A stretch of DNA of 64,000 bases, taken from positions 1 through 64,000 of the forward strand of contig CALVKA010000001.1 of the NCBI GenBank assembly GCA_944332475.1, written 5' to 3'. This document shows positions 60-53,739 of the stretch, piece after piece. Position 1 is the stretch's first letter. Each line of letters opens with the position of its first letter. A model generated the notes under the pieces. That model did no database searches. It was not told the DNA's origin and saw only the letters and a program-made list of their open reading frames with translations. The position numbers and the translations under genes are program-made. This stretch comes from an uncultured Bacilli bacterium. Its GTDB lineage: Bacteria; Bacillota_I; Bacilli_A; RF39; UBA660.

Positions 60-2993
60 ATGAATAAAATAAAAACCTTTATAAAAAATAATGTAAAAGA
101 AATTGTTGTCTTTGGTATTTTTATCGTTTCTTTATCTGTTTTCTTTATCGGTAGTGCTTTTGCGGCATTAACTCCTACGAAAAGTGTTATTATAACATCA
201 AAAAATACTAGTTTTGAAAATAGTGAGGAAGGTTCCTGGCAAGTTACTAAGAGTGGTGAATGGACAGCTAAAGGAGAAGCTACAGTATCTTTTGATGTGG
301 ATACAACTTTAATGACGAATAATCAATATACCGATATTATTTTTGTACTAGATATTTCAGGATCTATGTCAGGAGAAAAACTAGAAAGAGTAAAAAGTGA
401 TTCTACAGAATTAATCAATACGTTACTTTCTAATTCTAATAATAGGGCAGCTTTAATTACCTTTGATACAACCTCTTCTATTTTATCAGGGCTTACCAAT
501 GATAGAGAAGCTCTAACTAATCAAATCAGTCAATTATCTGTTACAGGTTCTACCAATTATTATCAGGCTTTAGTAAATGTAGATACTAGCTTACAAGATT
601 ATACAAAAGAAGAGGGAAGAGAGTTAATTGTATTGTTCTTAACGGATGGATATCCTAATGTCGATACGCCAAATCAAATTGCCGAGTATGGTTATTTAAA
701 AGATCAATATCCATACGCAAACATCAATGGAATTCAGTATGAAATGGGAAATACTATATTAAATCCGATTGTTGAAATTAGTGATAATCAATTTATTGCT
801 GATATGGATACTTTAAATAATGTCTTATTTGATGCCAGTGTCGCACCGATTCCCTATGAAGAGTTCCAAATTATCGATTATGTTAATAAAGATTATTTTC
901 TATTAAACAGTAAAGATGATATTAAAGTTTCCCAAGGTAGTGTAGAGTTAACAGAAGAAAACGGATTACAGAAGATTACTTGGACAATCGATAACTTAAA
1001 ATCAGGAAATACTGCTAATTTGACAATGAAATTACAATTAAAAGAAGAGTTTATTGGACAAGGAGGAATCTATCCAACGAACGATAGTGAAGAAGTTATT
1101 AGTAAGATAGAAAATGGGGAAGAAGACATTACTAGTACCTTAACTCCAATACTAGCTGATAACTACAGAGTCATTTATGAAGGAAACAATCCAGAAGGAT
1201 GTAGTGTTACCAATATACCAGAGACTATCAATTATTCTGTCTTTGATACTGTAGCGATGACAGAAGAAGAACCTAGTTGTACAGGATATGAGTTTAGAGG
1301 ATGGGAAATCGCAACTGATAATGTCACAAGAGTAAATGATGATTATTTCATTATGCCAGAAAAAGATGTCACAATTAGAGCCACATGGGCCAAAACAAGT
1401 TTAGCGAAATCTATGGATGGATCAGTATCTAATGTAATGACTTTATATAAGGTTATGCAAGACCAAGCAGTAATGGATAATGTAGCTAGTGAATTTGTAT
1501 CCTCTTCAACAGGTATTCGATTTAATAGTATTTCTTCTAATACCAATGGAAAAGGTGTGTATGAGAGAGCAGGAACAGAAAACAATGAATATCCTATTTA
1601 TTATTATCGAGGGGATGTCGATAATAATCATGTGAAGTTTGCAGGATTCTGTTGGAAAGCAGTAAGGACAACAGAAACCGGAGGAGTTAAATTAATCTAT
1701 GATGGAGTACCGGATGAAAACGGCTACTGTAATAATACAGGAACCGCTTCACAAATAGGAACCAGTGCCTTTAATTCTAGTTATAATTCACTGGCTTATG
1801 TTGGATATATGTATGGAGCAAGATATACATATTCAAGCAGAAGTGTGAATTGGTATAATCTTGTCAACAAATCTAGATACTCCGTATCAGGAATGAGTTC
1901 CAGAACCTATTACTATTCAGATAGTGTTAGTTATGATTCATCCACAGGAGAGTATACATTAGTCGATGCAGAAGCTCTATCTTGGAGTGATAATTATAAT
2001 AATTTGGCAGGAAGCTATACATGTCGGTCAGAAACAGCCACGACTTGTAGTAGTGTATCCTATATCGATTCTACTAGTAGTAGTTACTTATATTATGTAT
2101 CGATGAGTAATGGAGAAACGTATGATAGTTTAATAGAAGAAGCAAATCAGCTTACCTGGGTATATGGAAATGATGTTACTTGGAACGGAAGTGAATATAC
2201 CTTAGTAGATACCGTAGAAAGTAAGCCAATGGAATGGTCAACAGATAGAACTAGTGTAGTAGGAAATGGACACCGTTATACTTGTTTGTCAAATGGAAAT
2301 ACTTGTAGTAGTGTTTACTATGTACATTATACTGGTTATTCTTCCTCAATATACTATATAACCTTAACAGGAGGAATCAATATTAGCCAGGCACTAACAG
2401 AAATGACTAGCGAGAGTACCAATGAAAATAGTTCTAGAATTAAGACTACGATAGATACATGGTATGAAGCAAATATGACAGACTATACGAAATACTTAGA
2501 AGATACTGTATGGTGTAATGATAGAAGTATTTATCAACTAAATAGTTGGGATAAAGATTATAGTGGAACAGGATATTTGTATTTTGGACCATATGGGCGA
2601 AGATATTCTAGCTATAATCCAACAACGACCTGTACTAATATTAATGATTCGTTTACGGTAAGTAATGAGAATGGAAATGGAAATTTAACATATCCAGTTG
2701 CGTTACTTACGATGGATGAAATAAATATGGCAGGAGGAGCAAACTCCAGCAATAGTAGTTATTATCTGTATACGAGGCAGCACTGGTGGTCATTTTCACC
2801 TAGCATCTATAACAGCAACACCGCCAACGGATTCCGCGTGCGCTCGACAGGCAACTTGAACTACAGCAGCGTGAACAACACGCTCGGCGTCCGTCCGTCC
2901 GTTTCACTTGCACCTGGAATTATGGTAGTAAACGGAGACGGAAGTAGTGAGAAGCCGTATGAGGTAATGTTGGAAGATGAGGTTTATGGGTAG
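60..2993 (+). CDS. Large secreted VWA-domain adhesin with C-terminal DUF6273-like domain
   Basis: A 977-residue surface protein. Residues 10-36 form a signal peptide or membrane anchor ending in AFA. A von Willebrand A domain follows (about 90-290) with an intact MIDAS motif DISGS at 98-102 and later TDG, so it should bind a divalent metal and a ligand. Around 360-440 is an InlB/Listeria-Bacteroides type repeat (GYEFRGW...MPEKDVTI). The last 480 residues resemble the DUF6273-type domain also found at 53014-53739, ending in a GVRPSVSL motif. There is no LPxTG motif, so it is secreted or held by the N-terminal segment. The start has AAGGGG ten bases upstream. Codons in the final 35 residues before the tail are GC-rich, unlike the rest (see the entry at 2801-2910). 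By position beside a pilus operon it may be a tip adhesin; that is inference. Confidence 0.75.
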   Translation: MNKIKTFIKNNVKEIVVFGIFIVSLSVFFIGSAFAALTPTKSVIITSKNTSFENSEEGSWQVTKSGEWTAKGEATVSFDVDTTLMTNNQYTDIIFVLDISGSMSGEKLERVKSDSTELINTLLSNSNNRAALITFDTTSSILSGLTNDREALTNQISQLSVTGSTNYYQALVNVDTSLQDYTKEEGRELIVLFLTDGYPNVDTPNQIAEYGYLKDQYPYANINGIQYEMGNTILNPIVEISDNQFIADMDTLNNVLFDASVAPIPYEEFQIIDYVNKDYFLLNSKDDIKVSQGSVELTEENGLQKITWTIDNLKSGNTANLTMKLQLKEEFIGQGGIYPTNDSEEVISKIENGEEDITSTLTPILADNYRVIYEGNNPEGCSVTNIPETINYSVFDTVAMTEEEPSCTGYEFRGWEIATDNVTRVNDDYFIMPEKDVTIRATWAKTSLAKSMDGSVSNVMTLYKVMQDQAVMDNVASEFVSSSTGIRFNSISSNTNGKGVYERAGTENNEYPIYYYRGDVDNNHVKFAGFCWKAVRTTETGGVKLIYDGVPDENGYCNNTGTASQIGTSAFNSSYNSLAYVGYMYGARYTYSSRSVNWYNLVNKSRYSVSGMSSRTYYYSDSVSYDSSTGEYTLVDAEALSWSDNYNNLAGSYTCRSETATTCSSVSYIDSTSSSYLYYVSMSNGETYDSLIEEANQLTWVYGNDVTWNGSEYTLVDTVESKPMEWSTDRTSVVGNGHRYTCLSNGNTCSSVYYVHYTGYSSSIYYITLTGGINISQALTEMTSESTNENSSRIKTTIDTWYEANMTDYTKYLEDTVWCNDRSIYQLNSWDKDYSGTGYLYFGPYGRRYSSYNPTTTCTNINDSFTVSNENGNGNLTYPVALLTMDEINMAGGANSSNSSYYLYTRQHWWSFSPSIYNSNTANGFRVRSTGNLNYSSVNNTLGVRPSVSLAPGIMVVNGDGSSEKPYEVMLEDEVYG
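2801..2910 (+). other. Candidate diversity-generating retroelement variable region (VR)
   Basis: Between 2821 and 2900 I count 51 G/C in 80 bases (64 percent) in a gene otherwise near one third GC. The codons are almost all NNC types (AGC, AAC, ACC, CGC, TAC), with fixed GTG, TCG, GGC and TTG codons between them. This is what adenine-specific mutagenesis of AAC codons in a template repeat produces. The block ends with a GC-rich stretch at 2881-2901 containing GTCC three times, in the place where an initiation-of-mutagenic-homing site would lie. It encodes the C-terminal part of a ligand-exposed domain. No reverse transcriptase or second copy is present in the window, so the assignment is a strong suspicion and not proven. 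Confidence 0.5.
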
Positions 2994-3072
2994 TTTACAT
3001 TATTTTACATATTGATTTTTGTTGTATTGTTTTATATTTTATTTGCCGTTTTGATGATGTTTTAAAATAGTA

Positions 3073-3101: not shown

Positions 3102-3249
3102 TAATATAGTATGAAGGATAGAGAATGGGTGTTATGTAGGAGAATATTTATGAAAAGAGCCAATGATAGAATTTGTTGTTTCTACTAGAGGTGATTTCTG
3201 GTTTTTTTGTTGGCTATTTTGTTGTTAGATTGCAGAAGGGAGAATTGTG

Positions 3250-5337
3250 ATGAAAGACAAGAAGAAGTTAATTATCGGTTTGATTGTTTTAGCTGTTGTT
3301 GCTGTGATTATTGCGATTGTTGCATCTCTTTCTTTTGCTGCACCTTTGGAAAATGATGTTAAAGTTGAGGAAGATAGTGAATTAACTTATTATATTGATG
3401 TTATATATGATGGTAAAGATGGTGAGGCTACTACTTCTAGTGATACTGCAACTGCTCAAGTTTATAGTGATTATATTTATGTAGAAGATAAGATTCCTGA
3501 TGGATTAACATTTAAAGGGTTTGTTCAATCTGATGATGGGGAAACTATTGGTGCTGTTAAAAGAAGTGATGGTACTTTCTGTGCGGGCTATGTAGAAGAT
3601 GGTATGTCTGGTTTACAATATAATGAGGTAACTAGAACAGTTTCTTTTAGGGTTAAAAATTTACAGGCTGGATGTAAGATTACAGTAGGTATTATTACGC
3701 AGACGCCGACTTTACCAACGGGTATTAATCGAATGGACTTTTATAATACAGCGTATGGTAGGGAAGGTAGTACTTCTATTAATTCTAATACCGTTCATGT
3801 GTTTATGGGGCGTGATAATGTCACTCCTTATCAAGTTGTCTATCAATACGAAGGGGATGTTCCTGAAGGGGCTCCTGATGTTCCTCTTACTACTACTTAT
3901 GTAGCGGGTAGTACCGTTGGTGTTAGTCAAAATGTTACTGTTGAGGGGTATGATTTTAGTGGCTGGAGTACAACAGATGTTAGTGTTAGTAATGGATCTT
4001 TTACAATGCCTTCGAAAAATGTGACTTTTGTTGGTAGTTTTACTCCTAAGGAATCGGAGGAAACTTATGAGGTTAGTTATTCTATTTCTGGTTCTATGCC
4101 GGATGGTTATATGCCACCAAGAGATAAAGACTATCCTGTTGGTAGTGATGTTAAACTTGATTCTTTGAAAGTTGGAGATGTTATTAATGGTTATCGGTTC
4201 TTAGGATGGGCTACAAATGATGTAGAGCTACCTGCAATGTCTACGGATGCATCAACAATATTTACTATGCCTAATAATAATGTTCAATTGGTCGGACAAT
4301 TTGAACGTATTAGTTATAAAGTTACTTATCAATTCCAGGGTTCTGTTGTTCCACCTAATGCTTCTAGCTTGTTACCGGCTGAACAGTCTTATTATCCAGG
4401 GAATACTGTAACGACTGCTGCTTATCCAGAAGCGAGTGGTTATCGATTCCTTGGCTGGTATTATGCAGATGAGTTTACGATGCCAGAAGAAGATGTCGTT
4501 ATCTATGGTGAATGGATGGTAGAGACTGGTACTTTTTCACCAACAATTACTAAGAGTATTACTAATAAACAAGATTCTTATAGTGCGGGAGAGATTGTTA
4601 CTTTTGATATTACGGTTACTAATACCGCTGATTTTGTTATTACAGATGTTATATTAGAGGAACAAACAGATGGATGTAAGTTTGTTAGTGGTGATTCCTA
4701 TACAGTTCGTAATGATAAATATGCATCGATTGCCTCGATTCCTGCTCATGGTAGTGTTACTGTTCATGCGCAATATGAAGCTGGAGATGATGCTGTCAAA
4801 ACGATTACGAATGTTGTAGAGTTAACTGGTGCTTTGGCTAGTAATAACTATTCGTTAGATACTAGTCAGGATTATACCGCTGAAGTTGATTTTGTGGTTG
4901 CTAATATATCTTTAGAAATAGCGAAGATTAATGATGATCAAGATCCGTTATCTAATGCTGAATTTACTTTGTATCGTAATCGTGAATTGACTAATGTTGT
5001 TTCTAAAGGGTTAAGTTTTAATGGTTTGGCTCCAAATACAACCTATTATCTAGAAGAGACAAAAGCTCCTACTGGATATCAATTATTAGGTCAAGTATTG
5101 GAAATAAATGTGGGTAGTGATGGTACGATTACTATTCCTGGATATGATGTTTCTACTCAGAATGGAGTAAACAGAGTATCTATTATTAATCATGAGATTA
5201 ATGTATTACCTAATACTGGTGGTAGTGGTATTATTCCATACATTGTTGTTGGTCTAGTACTTATTATTACCGGGGTAGTATGTTCTATCTTCATGATTCG
5301 GAAGAGAGGTGCAAGACATGAAAAAAGTCGTAAGTAG
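3250..5337 (+). CDS. LPNTG-anchored surface/pilin protein with InlB-type repeats
   Basis: A 695-residue wall-anchored protein, first gene of the pilus operon. I start at ATG 3250, seven bases after GGAG (3239-3242); an in-frame GTG lies just before it. The N-terminus is a signal peptide ending near SFAAP. About 70-180 is an adhesin-like domain, then three repeats with the pattern Y.F.GW...FTMP (about 200-430) of the InlB B-repeat family. A DUF11-like domain (TFDITVTNT) follows, then a SpaA/Cna-B type domain with the ETKAPTGY loop, whose Glu is the isopeptide-forming residue in this family. The C-terminus has LPNTG, a hydrophobic segment and an Arg/Lys tail, the sortase signal. Likely the large tip or ancillary pilin; the assignment among pilins is inference. 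Confidence 0.8.
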   Translation: MKDKKKLIIGLIVLAVVAVIIAIVASLSFAAPLENDVKVEEDSELTYYIDVIYDGKDGEATTSSDTATAQVYSDYIYVEDKIPDGLTFKGFVQSDDGETIGAVKRSDGTFCAGYVEDGMSGLQYNEVTRTVSFRVKNLQAGCKITVGIITQTPTLPTGINRMDFYNTAYGREGSTSINSNTVHVFMGRDNVTPYQVVYQYEGDVPEGAPDVPLTTTYVAGSTVGVSQNVTVEGYDFSGWSTTDVSVSNGSFTMPSKNVTFVGSFTPKESEETYEVSYSISGSMPDGYMPPRDKDYPVGSDVKLDSLKVGDVINGYRFLGWATNDVELPAMSTDASTIFTMPNNNVQLVGQFERISYKVTYQFQGSVVPPNASSLLPAEQSYYPGNTVTTAAYPEASGYRFLGWYYADEFTMPEEDVVIYGEWMVETGTFSPTITKSITNKQDSYSAGEIVTFDITVTNTADFVITDVILEEQTDGCKFVSGDSYTVRNDKYASIASIPAHGSVTVHAQYEAGDDAVKTITNVVELTGALASNNYSLDTSQDYTAEVDFVVANISLEIAKINDDQDPLSNAEFTLYRNRELTNVVSKGLSFNGLAPNTTYYLEETKAPTGYQLLGQVLEINVGSDGTITIPGYDVSTQNGVNRVSIINHEINVLPNTGGSGIIPYIVVGLVLIITGVVCSIFMIRKRGARHEKSRK

Positions 5338-6007
5338 TTTCTTTCTCTTCCTTTCCATTCTTAGCTTTGGAGTTTTGAATGTAAAGGCGGATAATATTGA
5401 TGGTTCTAGAACGTCTAGTCTTTCGGTTACTTATCAGTATGATACTGTTATGCTTTCTAATGTGGATGTATCCTTATACTATTTAGCTAGTGTGGATGAG
5501 TCGGGAGTTTTTCAGTTTACTGATGACTATTTGGATGTAGCGTTTGATACTACGAATATTAGTTCCTCTGATTTGACCTTGCAAGCTGAGACGATTGAAA
5601 ATTATATTTCTAGTCATCAGTTGCAGGCTAGTAGTCTTTTAAAGACAAATCAAAATGGTGTTACTAACTTTTCTAATTTGGTACCTGGTTTATATTTGGT
5701 AACCGTCGATAGTAAGGTAGTAGGTGATTATCGATATGATGCTTCTCCTACTATTGTCAGCATCCCTATACTAGAAGATGGTACTTACCAATATGATGTT
5801 CAAATGAATATAAAAACAGAAAGAGAAGAGTTAGAGCAAGAGATTACTCCGCCTGGTGGTATGGATAATAATAATGAAATGGTTCCTAATACACTTGATA
5901 ATATTTATCTTTATATTGTGTTATTAGTCATTTCTATTATTGTTATTATTGGAGTGATAATGTATATTTCTAAAAGGAAGGATGAAAAAAATGAAAAAAA
6001 GAAATAA
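5318..6007 (+). CDS. Minor pilin or ancillary wall protein with VPNT-type sorting signal
   Basis: A 229-residue protein starting at ATG 5318, behind AGAGG (5304-5308), overlapping the end of the upstream pilin by 20 bases. An in-frame GTG at 5309 is less well placed. There is a signal peptide to about VKADN and a Cna-B-like body with the GLYLVTVDS strand near residue 130. The C-terminus has VPNT followed by a hydrophobic stretch and a Lys-rich tail. This is a sortase signal with a degenerate motif, lacking the Gly after Thr, so it may be used by one specific sortase or work poorly. By size and order it fits the basal or minor pilin. Confidence 0.7.
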   Translation: MKKVVSSFFLFLSILSFGVLNVKADNIDGSRTSSLSVTYQYDTVMLSNVDVSLYYLASVDESGVFQFTDDYLDVAFDTTNISSSDLTLQAETIENYISSHQLQASSLLKTNQNGVTNFSNLVPGLYLVTVDSKVVGDYRYDASPTIVSIPILEDGTYQYDVQMNIKTEREELEQEITPPGGMDNNNEMVPNTLDNIYLYIVLLVISIIVIIGVIMYISKRKDEKNEKKK

Positions 6008-7517
6008 GATATTATTATGTATACTTACTATTTTCGTTTTTGTTGGAATGCTTAATGTTCGTGCTATTGCTACAAATGATCAGTCTGGTACGTCTGATCC
6101 AAATAGTAAGTTTGTTACAGATACTGGTTTATTATCTGTAACTGGTGTTCAATCAGGTGATCAATTTAGAGCTTATAAAATTTTAGATACTTATTATAAT
6201 GCTTCTACTAATATTATCACTTATGAATTTACAACTGATTTTAAAGCTTTCTTAGGAAGTAATTATGGTACGGAATTTAATGACTTAACAGTTGATGATT
6301 ATTATGATTACACTAGTGGAAATATTGAGTCTGGTTCAACACTTTCTACATCTGATGTAGATAAATTAGCTAGTGCTTATGCTGGTTATATTAAAGCTAA
6401 TAGTGTTACTGGTACAGATATGAATGTTTCAGGGATTACTGCTAGTGCTACAGTTCAAGCTGGTTCTTATTTGGTGTTACCTACTAGTACAGTGAGAGTA
6501 TATGCTGTTATGGTTGGAAATATCGATTTTTCAGCAGTTGGTACGGATTGGCAAATCAATTCTGAGACTATTGTTGCGAAAGTAAGTGATGCTGGCGTTA
6601 CAAAATCTGTTGGAGAAGATGGATATGATAGTGGTTCTTATTCTATTGGGGATGATATTCCATTTATCGTTGTAGGAACTGTTCCTACTTATCCAACGAA
6701 TGCTACGAATCGTACTTATATTATTACAGATACGCTTAGTGAAGGGTTAGATTTTAATGCTGTTAGTTCTGTTACCATTCAAGATGGTGGAGAAACTTTA
6801 GTTACTGATAGTACTGGTAATGTTACGAATAGTCAAAGTGAGCAAGTTGCAACGATTCAAATATCTGATCGTACTATGACGATTACATTTAATACTGCTA
6901 ATCTTAATAGTAATACGGTTACTGTTCGCTATACAGCTAAATTAAATAATCAAGCTGGATTAGGAGCTAGTGGTGGTAACCATAATAGTGTAGAATTAAC
7001 TTATTCTAATGATCCATACGGAGAAGGAACTTATACAACATCTCCAGATGATGATGGTGGAACTGTTGATATCTTCATGTATGGTTTAGAAATTTATAAA
7101 TATGACAATAATGATGGTTCTCCAGTTGCTTTAGCAGGAGCAGAATTTACTATTTATAAAGATAGAGAATTAGATAATGCTATTACTACTGTTAGTACAG
7201 GTAGTGATGGTATTGCTAGATATGCTGGACTAGCTCAAGGAACTTACTATGTTCAGGAAACGAAGTCACCAACTGGTTATCGTTTAGATAATACGGTTCG
7301 TGAAATTAAAATTGGTCCAGGAGAAGGTAGCTTAGATGCTGCTGAGACAGAAGGTTATTATCGTTTAGAAGTTGCTAATACTAAGGCTGGTTTATTACCT
7401 GTTACTGGTGGTATTGGTACTATTGCTATTACGTTAGTAGGTTTAGTTATTGTTGGTGGAGCTATTTATTTCTTCTTTGTATATCGTAAGAAGAAACAAC
7501 AAGAAGGACAAGCATAA
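5991..7517 (+). CDS. Major pilin (isopeptide D2 domain, LPVTG)
   Basis: A 508-residue backbone pilin. ATG 5991 lies nine bases after GGAAGG (5976-5981); the in-frame ATG 5982 touches the SD and is unlikely. The gene overlaps the minor pilin by 17 bases. It has a signal peptide, an N-terminal domain, and a fimbrial isopeptide-formation D2-like domain about 200-340 (TKSVG...YSIGDDIPF). A SpaA-like Cna-B domain follows about 360-470 with the ETKSPTGY loop. It ends LPVTGG, a hydrophobic segment and a Lys-rich tail. In sortase pili of this type the class C sortase joins a pilin Lys to the Thr of LPxTG. The sortase genes follow directly, which supports this as the shaft subunit. Confidence 0.82.
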   Translation: MKKRNKILLCILTIFVFVGMLNVRAIATNDQSGTSDPNSKFVTDTGLLSVTGVQSGDQFRAYKILDTYYNASTNIITYEFTTDFKAFLGSNYGTEFNDLTVDDYYDYTSGNIESGSTLSTSDVDKLASAYAGYIKANSVTGTDMNVSGITASATVQAGSYLVLPTSTVRVYAVMVGNIDFSAVGTDWQINSETIVAKVSDAGVTKSVGEDGYDSGSYSIGDDIPFIVVGTVPTYPTNATNRTYIITDTLSEGLDFNAVSSVTIQDGGETLVTDSTGNVTNSQSEQVATIQISDRTMTITFNTANLNSNTVTVRYTAKLNNQAGLGASGGNHNSVELTYSNDPYGEGTYTTSPDDDGGTVDIFMYGLEIYKYDNNDGSPVALAGAEFTIYKDRELDNAITTVSTGSDGIARYAGLAQGTYYVQETKSPTGYRLDNTVREIKIGPGEGSLDAAETEGYYRLEVANTKAGLLPVTGGIGTIAITLVGLVIVGGAIYFFFVYRKKKQQEGQA

Positions 7518-7524
7518 TTGATTT

Positions 7525-8493
7525 ATGAATAAAGAGATAAAAGAAAAACTTATTATTTTTCTATTTATCCTTATGATTGTTGTGGGACTAGGAATTATCC
7601 TATTCCCTTTAATTAGTAATCAAGTAAATGAGATACATTACCAAGAGGTCATTGGTACTTATGATGATACAGTAACTCAGAAGACAGAGATTGAAAATGA
7701 TCAAATGTTAATTAAAGCGAGGGAATATAATAGTTCTCTTTCTTCTACAAAGATTGTGGATGTTTTTCAAAATCCTGTTCAGACTAACTCTTCTGAGTAT
7801 TTGTCTATTTTAAATGTGGATGATAATGGAATGATGGGATATATCTCTATACCGAAGATTGATGTTAGAATACCAATTTATCATGGTACTAGTTCAGATA
7901 TATTACAAAAAGGGGTAGGACATTTAGAAGGGAGTTCTCTTCCCGTTGGAGGAGAGAGTACGCATGCTATTTTATCGGCACATCGTGGGCTCCCTTCTTC
8001 ACGTCTATTTACAGATTTAGATCAGCTTAAAGAGGGAGACATTTTTTATATTTATGTTTTAGATGAAGTTCTTGCCTATCAAGTAGACCAAGTTTTGGTT
8101 ACTGAACCATCAGAAACGGAAGCGTTAAAAATAGTGGATGGTAAAGACTATATTACTTTAGTTACTTGTACACCATATGCTGTTAATACTCATCGATTAC
8201 TCGTTCGTGGGGAAAGAATAGAATATAATAAACAAGTGGAAGAACAAACGGTAGAGGATAGGTCTTTATCTACTGCTGATATTATTTTATATGTTAGTTT
8301 AGTAATTGCTATTTTATTAATTGTTATTACTATTATAGCTATTGTTCGTTATAAGCAGAATAAAAATAGACAAGCTCAAACCAATGATGCACAGACTGTT
8401 GTTCCTACTTTACCTCCTAATAGTGTAGTGGAACAAAGTACCAATGTATCAGATTATGATAAACAAGATGTATCTAATGATGATATTATTTAG
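7525..8493 (+). CDS. srtC: Class C pilus sortase
   Basis: A 322-residue membrane transpeptidase that polymerises pilins. It has an N-terminal membrane segment (10-31) and a second one near 255-280, the two-helix topology typical of class C enzymes. The catalytic triad is visible: His153 in SAHRG, Cys215 in VTCTPY and Arg228 in LLVRGE. The CTPYAVNTHRLLVRG run is characteristic of class C. It begins seven bases after the major pilin and ends where the next sortase begins, so it belongs to the same operon. A DPW-type lid is not obvious at the usual place. Confidence 0.9.
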   Translation: MNKEIKEKLIIFLFILMIVVGLGIILFPLISNQVNEIHYQEVIGTYDDTVTQKTEIENDQMLIKAREYNSSLSSTKIVDVFQNPVQTNSSEYLSILNVDDNGMMGYISIPKIDVRIPIYHGTSSDILQKGVGHLEGSSLPVGGESTHAILSAHRGLPSSRLFTDLDQLKEGDIFYIYVLDEVLAYQVDQVLVTEPSETEALKIVDGKDYITLVTCTPYAVNTHRLLVRGERIEYNKQVEEQTVEDRSLSTADIILYVSLVIAILLIVITIIAIVRYKQNKNRQAQTNDAQTVVPTLPPNSVVEQSTNVSDYDKQDVSNDDII

Positions 8494-8507
8494 TGGGAGG
8501 GAATACT

Positions 8508-9290
8508 ATGAAAAGATGGAAGTTTATACTTGCGATTGTTATCTTGATCATCTTTTTAGGAGTATTCTCTTTTTCTTTATATCATATTATTTTATGGTAT
8601 CAAGATAATCAAAAGACAAATCAACAGATTGAAAAATTACAAGATATGGTTCAAGTCAATGAAGCGAAGGATACCATGACTACTGAAATGCTTGATAGTA
8701 GTCGTTATTATAATGTTGATTTGTTAAGTGTTGATTTTACGAATTTGTTAAATGAAAATGAAGAGGTTGTTGGTTGGATTCAAATTCCTAATACGAATAT
8801 TAATTATCCTTTTGTACAACATAGTGATAATTCTTACTATTTGAGGCGTTCTTTTGATCAAAGTTATAATAATGCAGGCTGGTTGTTTTTAGATTATCGT
8901 AATCGATTAGATCCGATTGATATGAATACAGTTATTTATGCTCATGGTAGAGTAGATGGGACGATGTTTGGTAGTTTAAAGAATGCTTTGACGGATGAGT
9001 GGATGATGCAAGAACAATATTATATTAAGATTTCTACTTTAAGTTATAATTATTTGTTTGAGATATTTAGTGCTTATCATATAAAGACTACCAATGATTA
9101 TTTGATTACTAATTTTAGTAGTAATCAAGAATATCAAAAGTTTTTGGATAAAATAAAGCGTCGTAGTATGGTTTCTTTTGATACTACGGTTTCTACACAA
9201 AATAAGATTCTTACTTTGTCTACTTGTTATAATAATCAAGAGAAAATGGTTGTGCATGGCAAATTGGTAAAACAGGAGAAAAGATATTAG
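8508..9290 (+). CDS. srtB: Class B-like sortase with Arg-to-Lys change
   Basis: A 260-residue sortase starting at ATG 8508, seven bases after GGGAGG (8495-8500). A single N-terminal membrane helix (5-27) is followed by a SrtB-type domain with VGWIQIPNT near 85. Catalytic His146 sits in YAHG and Cys240 in LSTCY. The Arg expected just before the VVHG strand is Lys246, and no other Arg is nearby until residue 259. In pilus loci of this layout a second sortase attaches the finished pilus to the peptidoglycan, which is the likely role here. It is the last gene of the operon, followed by a clear terminator. Confidence 0.82.
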   Translation: MKRWKFILAIVILIIFLGVFSFSLYHIILWYQDNQKTNQQIEKLQDMVQVNEAKDTMTTEMLDSSRYYNVDLLSVDFTNLLNENEEVVGWIQIPNTNINYPFVQHSDNSYYLRRSFDQSYNNAGWLFLDYRNRLDPIDMNTVIYAHGRVDGTMFGSLKNALTDEWMMQEQYYIKISTLSYNYLFEIFSAYHIKTTNDYLITNFSSNQEYQKFLDKIKRRSMVSFDTTVSTQNKILTLSTCYNNQEKMVVHGKLVKQEKRY

Positions 9291-52426: not shown

Positions 52427-53026
52427 ATGAAAGCAATGGATTACTATCAATTGAAAGCAATTGTATTGGGACTTAGAGATGGCTATTTATCAGGGCAACC
52501 ATTTATAAGATTAGCAAAATCTTGTTTACAATATGATGAGGATAAAATTCGTGATATTTCTTTTTATATTAATAGTTTTGATGGTCAAGATAGTTTGTTT
52601 ATAGAGTTTTTAACTTATCCGGAAGTTTTTGATGATATAAAAAAACTTTTGACGCTTTTTTCAAATGATTCAAAGGATTCTAAAAGGGTTTTCTATGTAA
52701 TGCCTAATTTACCGATTGATGAAATTCAGGTGACTAATCGTCGTTGTAAAGCTAAGATTATAGATAATGATCAATTTCAAAAGGCAATCCATCAATATTT
52801 TGATTTGCCATTTTTTAGAAACATTCAAAATGAGTTTTCTTCCGCTCAATCTCATGATACGTTGATGACGGAAGTGGCTGGTTTTTCTTTTTACAGTGAT
52901 GTTTTGACGTTGTCTTACATTCCTAATGAGGATATATTTTTTGCTGATGCGGGTGAAAATAGTATTTTACAAGGGTTAAATGAGACTTTTGATGATTTGT
53001 TTTTTCTTTGGCTATGCAAGAGATGA
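52427..53026 (+). CDS. Protein of unknown function upstream of the truncated surface gene
   Basis: A 199-residue soluble protein with no recognised motif. ATG 52427 is ten bases after GGGAG; ATG 52421 is also possible. It has no signal peptide or membrane segment. Its last 13 bases overlap the next frame. The function is unknown. Confidence 0.55.
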   Translation: MKAMDYYQLKAIVLGLRDGYLSGQPFIRLAKSCLQYDEDKIRDISFYINSFDGQDSLFIEFLTYPEVFDDIKKLLTLFSNDSKDSKRVFYVMPNLPIDEIQVTNRRCKAKIIDNDQFQKAIHQYFDLPFFRNIQNEFSSAQSHDTLMTEVAGFSFYSDVLTLSYIPNEDIFFADAGENSILQGLNETFDDLFFLWLCKR

Positions 53027-53739
53027 TTTCTCCTTATTGTGAGGAAAATATTAATGTTCGTATTTCTCCTGAACTTGCCGAATTTACTAGGGGAGAAGTT
53101 GGAGAAGAAGGAGGACTTGTTGAGAATGAAGATGGTAGTCATGACTTTGTAGGTGATGAGACTTCTGCTGTTAGTAATTATATCCAACTTCCTGGGGATA
53201 CTTATTTATGGAGAATTTTATCTATTGATTCGGATGGCAATTTAAAGATTATTCGTAATCGAGATGAAAGTTTGACTTCTATTTATACTACAGCAGATTC
53301 TTCTAACTGGGCAGGTACGACAGTTCTTGCGAATTTAAATAGTTTTTATCAGGAGCATTTGGCAAATTTATCTGATATCATTGTTCAAAATCCTAATTGG
53401 TTATTAACGAGTGCTAGCAATAGTAATCCTACTGCAGTCACTATTAATGGTAGTTATACGGATAGTCTGATTGGTTTGATTCGAAATGATGAAGTGGTTA
53501 ATAGTTCTGGTAGTGTTTCAAATAATGGAGACTGTGCTTCTTGGTTAAATGATGGTTATCAGTGGACGATGACTTCTGTTACGAATAAGCCGAAACAGGC
53601 GTTTCGAATGAATGAGGGAAAATTTCGAAATTCTAATATTAATACGAACACTGTATATCGCCCTGTTATTTATTTAAAGTCCACGGTTTCTTTTTCGGGT
53701 GGTACTGGGACTGAGGGGGCTCCATTTGTTGTTTCATAA
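53014..53739 (+). CDS. DUF6273-like domain protein, probably 5'-truncated
   Basis: A 241-residue frame. It reads LPGDTYLWRILSIDSDG near 70, NSNPTAVTINGSYTDS in the middle, and ends FRNSNINTNTVYRPVIYLKS and FSGGTGTEGAPF. That is the same layout as the C-terminal domain of the VWA adhesin at 60-2993. Yet there is no signal peptide and no SD before ATG 53014 or 53023, and the frame opens inside the preceding gene. Related proteins usually carry an exported N-terminus. It is probably a remnant cut off from its start, or part of a frameshifted gene. Unlike the adhesin it has no GC-rich block. Confidence 0.5.
   Translation: MQEMISPYCEENINVRISPELAEFTRGEVGEEGGLVENEDGSHDFVGDETSAVSNYIQLPGDTYLWRILSIDSDGNLKIIRNRDESLTSIYTTADSSNWAGTTVLANLNSFYQEHLANLSDIIVQNPNWLLTSASNSNPTAVTINGSYTDSLIGLIRNDEVVNSSGSVSNNGDCASWLNDGYQWTMTSVTNKPKQAFRMNEGKFRNSNINTNTVYRPVIYLKSTVSFSGGTGTEGAPFVVS

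Follow-up and report, generated by a model that had tools for sequence, protein, structure and literature searches.

The first gene of the 64,000-nucleotide stretch of DNA analyzed here (hereafter, the window), from an uncultured Bacilli bacterium, encodes a surface adhesin. A short GC-rich block near the 3′ end of this gene raises the question of whether a diversity-generating retroelement (DGR) made it and whether such an element still acts on it. An earlier note on this DNA had described the block as rich in NNC codons and proposed that the gene "is, or was" a DGR target. The block proved to be real. At positions 2821–2900, 51 of the 80 bases are G or C (0.6375), and among all 80-nt segments of the 64 kb (mean GC 0.321, sd 0.057), the maximum was found at the segment beginning at 2822, the next peak reaching 0.575. 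Codons 914–946 of the gene (2799–2897) include 22 NNC codons out of 33, as compared with 10.7% in the remaining gene, and no other 33-codon segment of the gene holds more than 8. Among NNY codons, 22 of 25 end in C within the block versus 101 of 505 in the remaining gene (Fisher p = 2.8e-12). One TAT codon (2808–2810) had been thought to need an AAT ancestor. However, it sits at a position that is fixed as Phe, Tyr, or Trp in the template repeats (TRs) of relatives, where TTC or TGG is found, and therefore an AAT origin is not required.

We then considered the protein that carries the block. The adhesin consists of a hydrophobic N-terminal signal, a VWA domain, an InlB-type repeat, and a C-terminal variable domain; a GBS104-like_Ig match in Pfam was weak and below cut-off. 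Neither Pfam nor NCBIfam provided a name for the long C-terminal region, and no LPXTG sorting signal was found on the translation, which ends in ...EKPYEVMLEDEVYG. A domain encoded at 53014–53739 had been proposed as a homologue, but its similarity to the adhesin is weak (BLASTP E = 0.12, 24% identity). The AF2 model of aa 447–977 had a mean pLDDT of 94.2, and the block corresponds to model residues 468–500, among the last strands. A Foldseek search of this model against the PDB returned nothing significant, and a structure search of a viral library returned DUF6273 proteins with marginal scores. The best VIA-align row was a structure of the Thomasclavelia ramosa IgA peptidase (Z 13.6, rmsd 3.9, 196 aligned residues), a match indicating that part of the model shares a fold with this structure, but uninformative on function. 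C-type lectins, namely Lcl, CD23, and mannose-binding protein, matched at middling Z, and the aligned ranges extended to the last strands bearing the block. Values were Z 6.4, rmsd 5.2, and 122 aligned residues for the C-terminal domain of Legionella Lcl, and Z 4.5, rmsd 2.9, and 103 aligned residues for the CD23 lectin. The domain probably adopts a C-type-lectin-like fold with insertions, and the block probably forms its binding face. Most of the DGR targets in the literature are C-Lec domains located C-terminally (PMC8144416).

Features of the adhesin gene, its variable region, and the adjacent operon (positions in the window)
Feature	Position	Strand	Basis
977-aa surface adhesin	60..2993	+	Translation; Pfam VWA_2 (8e-15), Flg_new_2 (4e-6)
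VWA domain, aa 92–207	333..680	+	Pfam
C-terminal domain, aa 447–977	1398..2990	+	Homologue search, AF2, structural alignments
Putative DGR variable region (VR)	2799..2897	+	33 codons, mostly NNC; codon counts and TR alignments
GC-rich 3′ end of the putative VR, at the IMH position	2881..2900	+	Nucleotide match to genome G248
GTTTCACTT, directly after the putative VR	2901..2909	+	Nucleotide-level conservation in several genera
Region of the hairpin of relatives	2910..3060	+	10–15 bp stem and short loop in relatives; none in the window
SpaA/InlB/SHIRT pilin with LPNTG	3247..5337	+	Domain searches; G008 orthologue, 68% identity
232-aa pilin-like protein	5309..6007	+	Weak SpaH/EbpB match below cut-off
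Major pilin, LPXTG	5982..7517	+	GramPos_pilinBB, SpaA, RrgB_K2N_iso_D2
Sortase	7525..8493	+	Domain search, G008 orthologue
Second sortase	8493..9290	+	Domain search

Homologues of the domain, searched for with the last 207 residues of the adhesin (aa 771–977), were present in 61 of 147 related genomes, at up to at least 21 copies per genome. Viral contigs, scanned at both the DNA and the protein level, yielded no matches, and a single scan of genome contigs gave one distant relative. A Pfam RVT_1 search of the 147 genomes revealed reverse transcriptases (RTs), mostly of ~370 aa, a few kb from several of these domains, including in three genomes of the same genus (G001, G010, and G012). We then ran a script designed to detect near-repeats that mismatch at the adenines of one copy. 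In eleven genomes, three of them of the same genus, a TR followed a homologue of the C-terminal domain, with mismatches to the VR located mostly or only at TR adenines. Counts at TR adenines and elsewhere were 14/0 (G034), 18/0 (G074 and G012), 15/0 (G072), 13/0 (G433), 21/1 (G453 and G033), 22/1 (G066), 22/3 (G213), 13/4 (G010), and, for the two TRs of G001, 13/5 and 16/5. G080 contained an additional TR/VR pair of a different type (28/0). In G012, whose cassette was annotated in full, the order is target, TR, MutS_I-domain protein, bAvd, and an RT with IGNMTSQ. By their anatomy, these loci are DGRs.

Other features of the family were noticed during this survey. The protein lying between TR and bAvd in G012 carries MutS domain I (L076:12173-12574), and contig C58 of G001 (L074) has tandem TRs, at 4903–5018 and 5136–5248 of the reverse complement, adjoining one target and an RT. 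G427 (89% complete) encodes tandem targets with freshly diversified VRs (L143, reverse-complement coordinates 5594 and 6788), and neither a DGR RT nor a TR was found in it. In G427 and in G080, each with two VR paralogues, 16–17 codons differ at positions 1 or 2 and 3 at position 3, the gene bodies being 84% identical. Last, G064 (71% complete) holds some twenty paralogues (L090, L091, L102-L105, L165-L178), whose VRs grade from TR-like (GC 0.61–0.64) to fully AT-rich (0.22–0.34). This gradient looks as if retired VRs decay to the local composition.

The window block was next compared with the TRs of these relatives. It aligned codon for codon with the TR of G033 (TR protein, PYNFNNNNANEYNVNSTGNLNNNNVNNTNGVRP; window, PSIYNSNTANGFRVRSTGNLNYSSVNNTLGVRP). 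All 16 window codons opposite an AAY codon of this TR end in C, and taking it as a guide, about 12 of 32 adenines are changed in the window. Across nine TRs, which are related and so not independent (those of G074, G066, and G433, whose frame was not resolved by the script, were left out), 95 of 98 window codons opposite an AAY were NNC, 38 of them still coding for Asn, and the amino acid was kept at 117 of the 212 other aligned positions. Besides, the last bases of the block and those downstream (2886–2915) are identical at 30 of 30 positions to G248, which belongs to another genus. Taken together, the TR-linked homologous domains of relatives, with their DGR-type RTs, and the NNC pattern opposite TR AAY codons argue that the block very likely originated as a DGR VR, as the earlier note had proposed in its "is, or was".

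Two explanations that dispense with a DGR were weighed against this origin. One is that a GC-rich coding segment was imported by ordinary horizontal transfer, which would produce a sharp GC island within an AT-rich gene such as the one observed. Yet the island occupies the place taken by the VR in homologous DGR targets and, opposite the AAY codons of the relatives' TRs, the differences in its codons are restricted to bases 1 and 2, which makes such an import extremely improbable. The other is antigenic variation through gene conversion from silent cassettes. The many paralogues of the domain in relatives and the range of G064 VRs, from TR-like to AT-rich, speak in its favor. However, no donor copy of the block was found in the source genome, and gene conversion does not yield the adenine-restricted differences seen against the relatives' templates; we consider this very improbable. 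In the DGR scenario, mutagenic cDNA from a GC-rich, AAC-rich TR would once have replaced positions 2799–2897, and homing would have randomized positions 1 and 2 of the codons. This change would have altered the putative binding face of the lectin-like C-terminal domain of the VWA adhesin.

Whether the VR is still being rewritten is a separate issue, and we searched the source genome (~95% complete, 7 contigs) for the DGR machinery. No DGR-type RT (IGxxxSQ) was found in this assembly. The single RT found there, on contig C6, is the maturase of a group II intron, present as a fragment at the contig end (L012:5140-5964); it was rejected as a DGR RT because PQGGNLSP stands in place of the IGxxxSQ of DGR RTs. 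When a DGR RT served as protein query, the source genome gave no match either, while RTs were recovered from 7 of the 19 genomes searched. Searches of the assembly for a TR with the VR, the VR with A allowed at any base, a predicted TR, and a generic TR pattern returned nothing beyond the VR and matches at chance level. The generic pattern recovered the TRs of nine DGR-bearing relatives. No bAvd was found in the assembly, but this says little because, within the genus, bAvd was seen in just 2 of 16 genomes, DGR-bearing G001 and G010 not being among them. Thus, the genome-wide check suggested by the earlier note, for a DGR RT and for a near-copy of the block differing at adenines only, uncovered neither in the 95%-complete assembly. 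This result bears on present activity and not on origin.

Cis elements were also considered. In BPP-1, a hairpin/cruciform lies downstream of the VR and efficient homing needs it (PMC3240598). A perfect stem of 10–15 bp with a 2–4 nt loop was observed downstream, near the stop codon, at each of the 10 scanned TR-adjacent VRs from relatives, the G433 VR, which lies at a contig end, being left out. No such hairpin was found after the window VR. Hairpins were likewise not found in G070, G248, G427, G220, and G445, which have GC-rich VRs and in which no DGR RT was found. Overall, the hairpin accompanied 12 of 16 GC-rich VRs where the genome has a DGR RT or TR versus 0 of 5 where neither was found (p = 0.006), a comparison conceived after the data were seen and made among related genomes. 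The VR is directly followed by GTTTCACTT, a possible cis element given its conservation; among 26 GC-rich VRs, 7 were followed by GTTTCACTT, 3 by GTTTCACTA, and 4 by GTTTCTCTT.

As RT, TR, bAvd, and downstream hairpin are all missing from the assembly, "was" or "imported" is favored over "is", and DGR activity appears to have been lost at present from the source genome. The likely explanation is an orphaned VR: after its diversification, either the cassette would have disappeared or the VR (or the gene), already diversified, would have been acquired from a DGR-bearing relative. Third positions of the VR show almost no decay, which suggests either a recent last round of homing or the arrival of the VR or gene from a lineage that had a DGR. 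So little decay is easier to reconcile with activity that is recent or ongoing than with a relic of long standing.

Accordingly, a live DGR target had to be considered, in which an RT-Avd-TR cassette would lie in the few per cent of the genome that are unassembled, possibly immediately beyond the contig edge on the upstream side, and would diversify the VR in trans. The cassette could be unassembled because the assembly is incomplete, because base 1 of the window is also that of the 509-kb contig C1, which places the adhesin gene 59 bp from the edge and leaves no assembled DNA upstream for the search that the earlier note called for, and because domain-bearing genes are often near contig ends; the DGR loci of relatives are often on short contigs or at contig ends. 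Fresh, undecayed NNC codons also go in this direction, and so does G080, in which two GC-rich VRs are on contigs other than that of the RT, suggesting trans targeting. Nevertheless, RT and TR would both need to be missing from a 7-contig assembly of this completeness. Moreover, the window VR has no hairpin, whereas G080 VRs retain theirs, and hairpins are also missing in the five genomes with VRs and no DGR RT found. We therefore regard a live target, the main rival, as unlikely, and an orphaned VR as the better account of the locus.

As had been noted earlier, a pilus operon stands beside the adhesin gene, with two LPXTG pilins and two sortases downstream. G008, of the same genus, has an orthologous operon (identities of 68% for the first pilin, 59% for the major pilin, and 74% for the sortase). 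There, on contig C15 (L089:966-4574), in an operon orthologous to window 3247–8490, the SpaA region of the LPNTG pilin houses the variable domain as an insertion. This arrangement is a natural domain shuffle, and the presence of the same domain inside the first pilin of G008 links the domain with the pilus. Although devoid of LPXTG, the window adhesin may sit at the pilus tip and be presented with the pilus. VWA tip pilins such as GBS104 and RrgA are encoded beside LPXTG pilins and sortases, and so is the window VWA protein; it differs from them by lacking LPXTG and by having a C-terminal lectin-like variable domain.

The locus can be compared with other known systems. It resembles BPP-1-type/Avd DGRs by its C-terminal VR of ~100 bp, its AAY-derived codons, its GC-rich 3′ end, and the TR/RT cassettes of the same genus, and differs by a source genome in which no RT, TR, Avd, or post-VR hairpin was detected. 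In isolates of Treponema denticola, DGR target genes persist without RT and TR (PMC4891356). There too, a VR-bearing target is retained in a genome without the core DGR, but in another phylum and with another target, the window target being the one that adjoins a sortase-pilus operon. In Bacteroides, tip pilins of type V pili are diversified by DGRs (reviewed in PMC12632263). The window shares with them the DGR diversification of a pilus-associated adhesin; it has, however, a Gram-positive sortase-pilus context and a VWA protein with a putative tip placement. A DGR-diversified adhesin by a Gram-positive sortase-pilus operon would parallel the Bacteroides tip pilins in an unrelated pilus type. 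A literature search, mostly outside subscription papers and preprints, found none joining DGRs with sortase, or with pilus and von Willebrand.

A further and rather doubtful proposal is that the family keeps and passes on DGR-made variable domains without the machine. Its basis is that genomes devoid of RT hold fresh, diversified VRs without the homing hairpin. If true, DGRs would supply a shared and shufflable lectin-like repertoire, sometimes housed in pilins as in G008, beyond tuning one resident target. In any case, the family offers a natural series that comprises live cassettes, targets probably diversified in trans, orphan VRs that are still fresh, and VRs that have decayed. Such a series makes it possible to test whether the post-VR hairpin marks targets that are still rewritable, and how long DGR-made diversity survives after the machine is lost.
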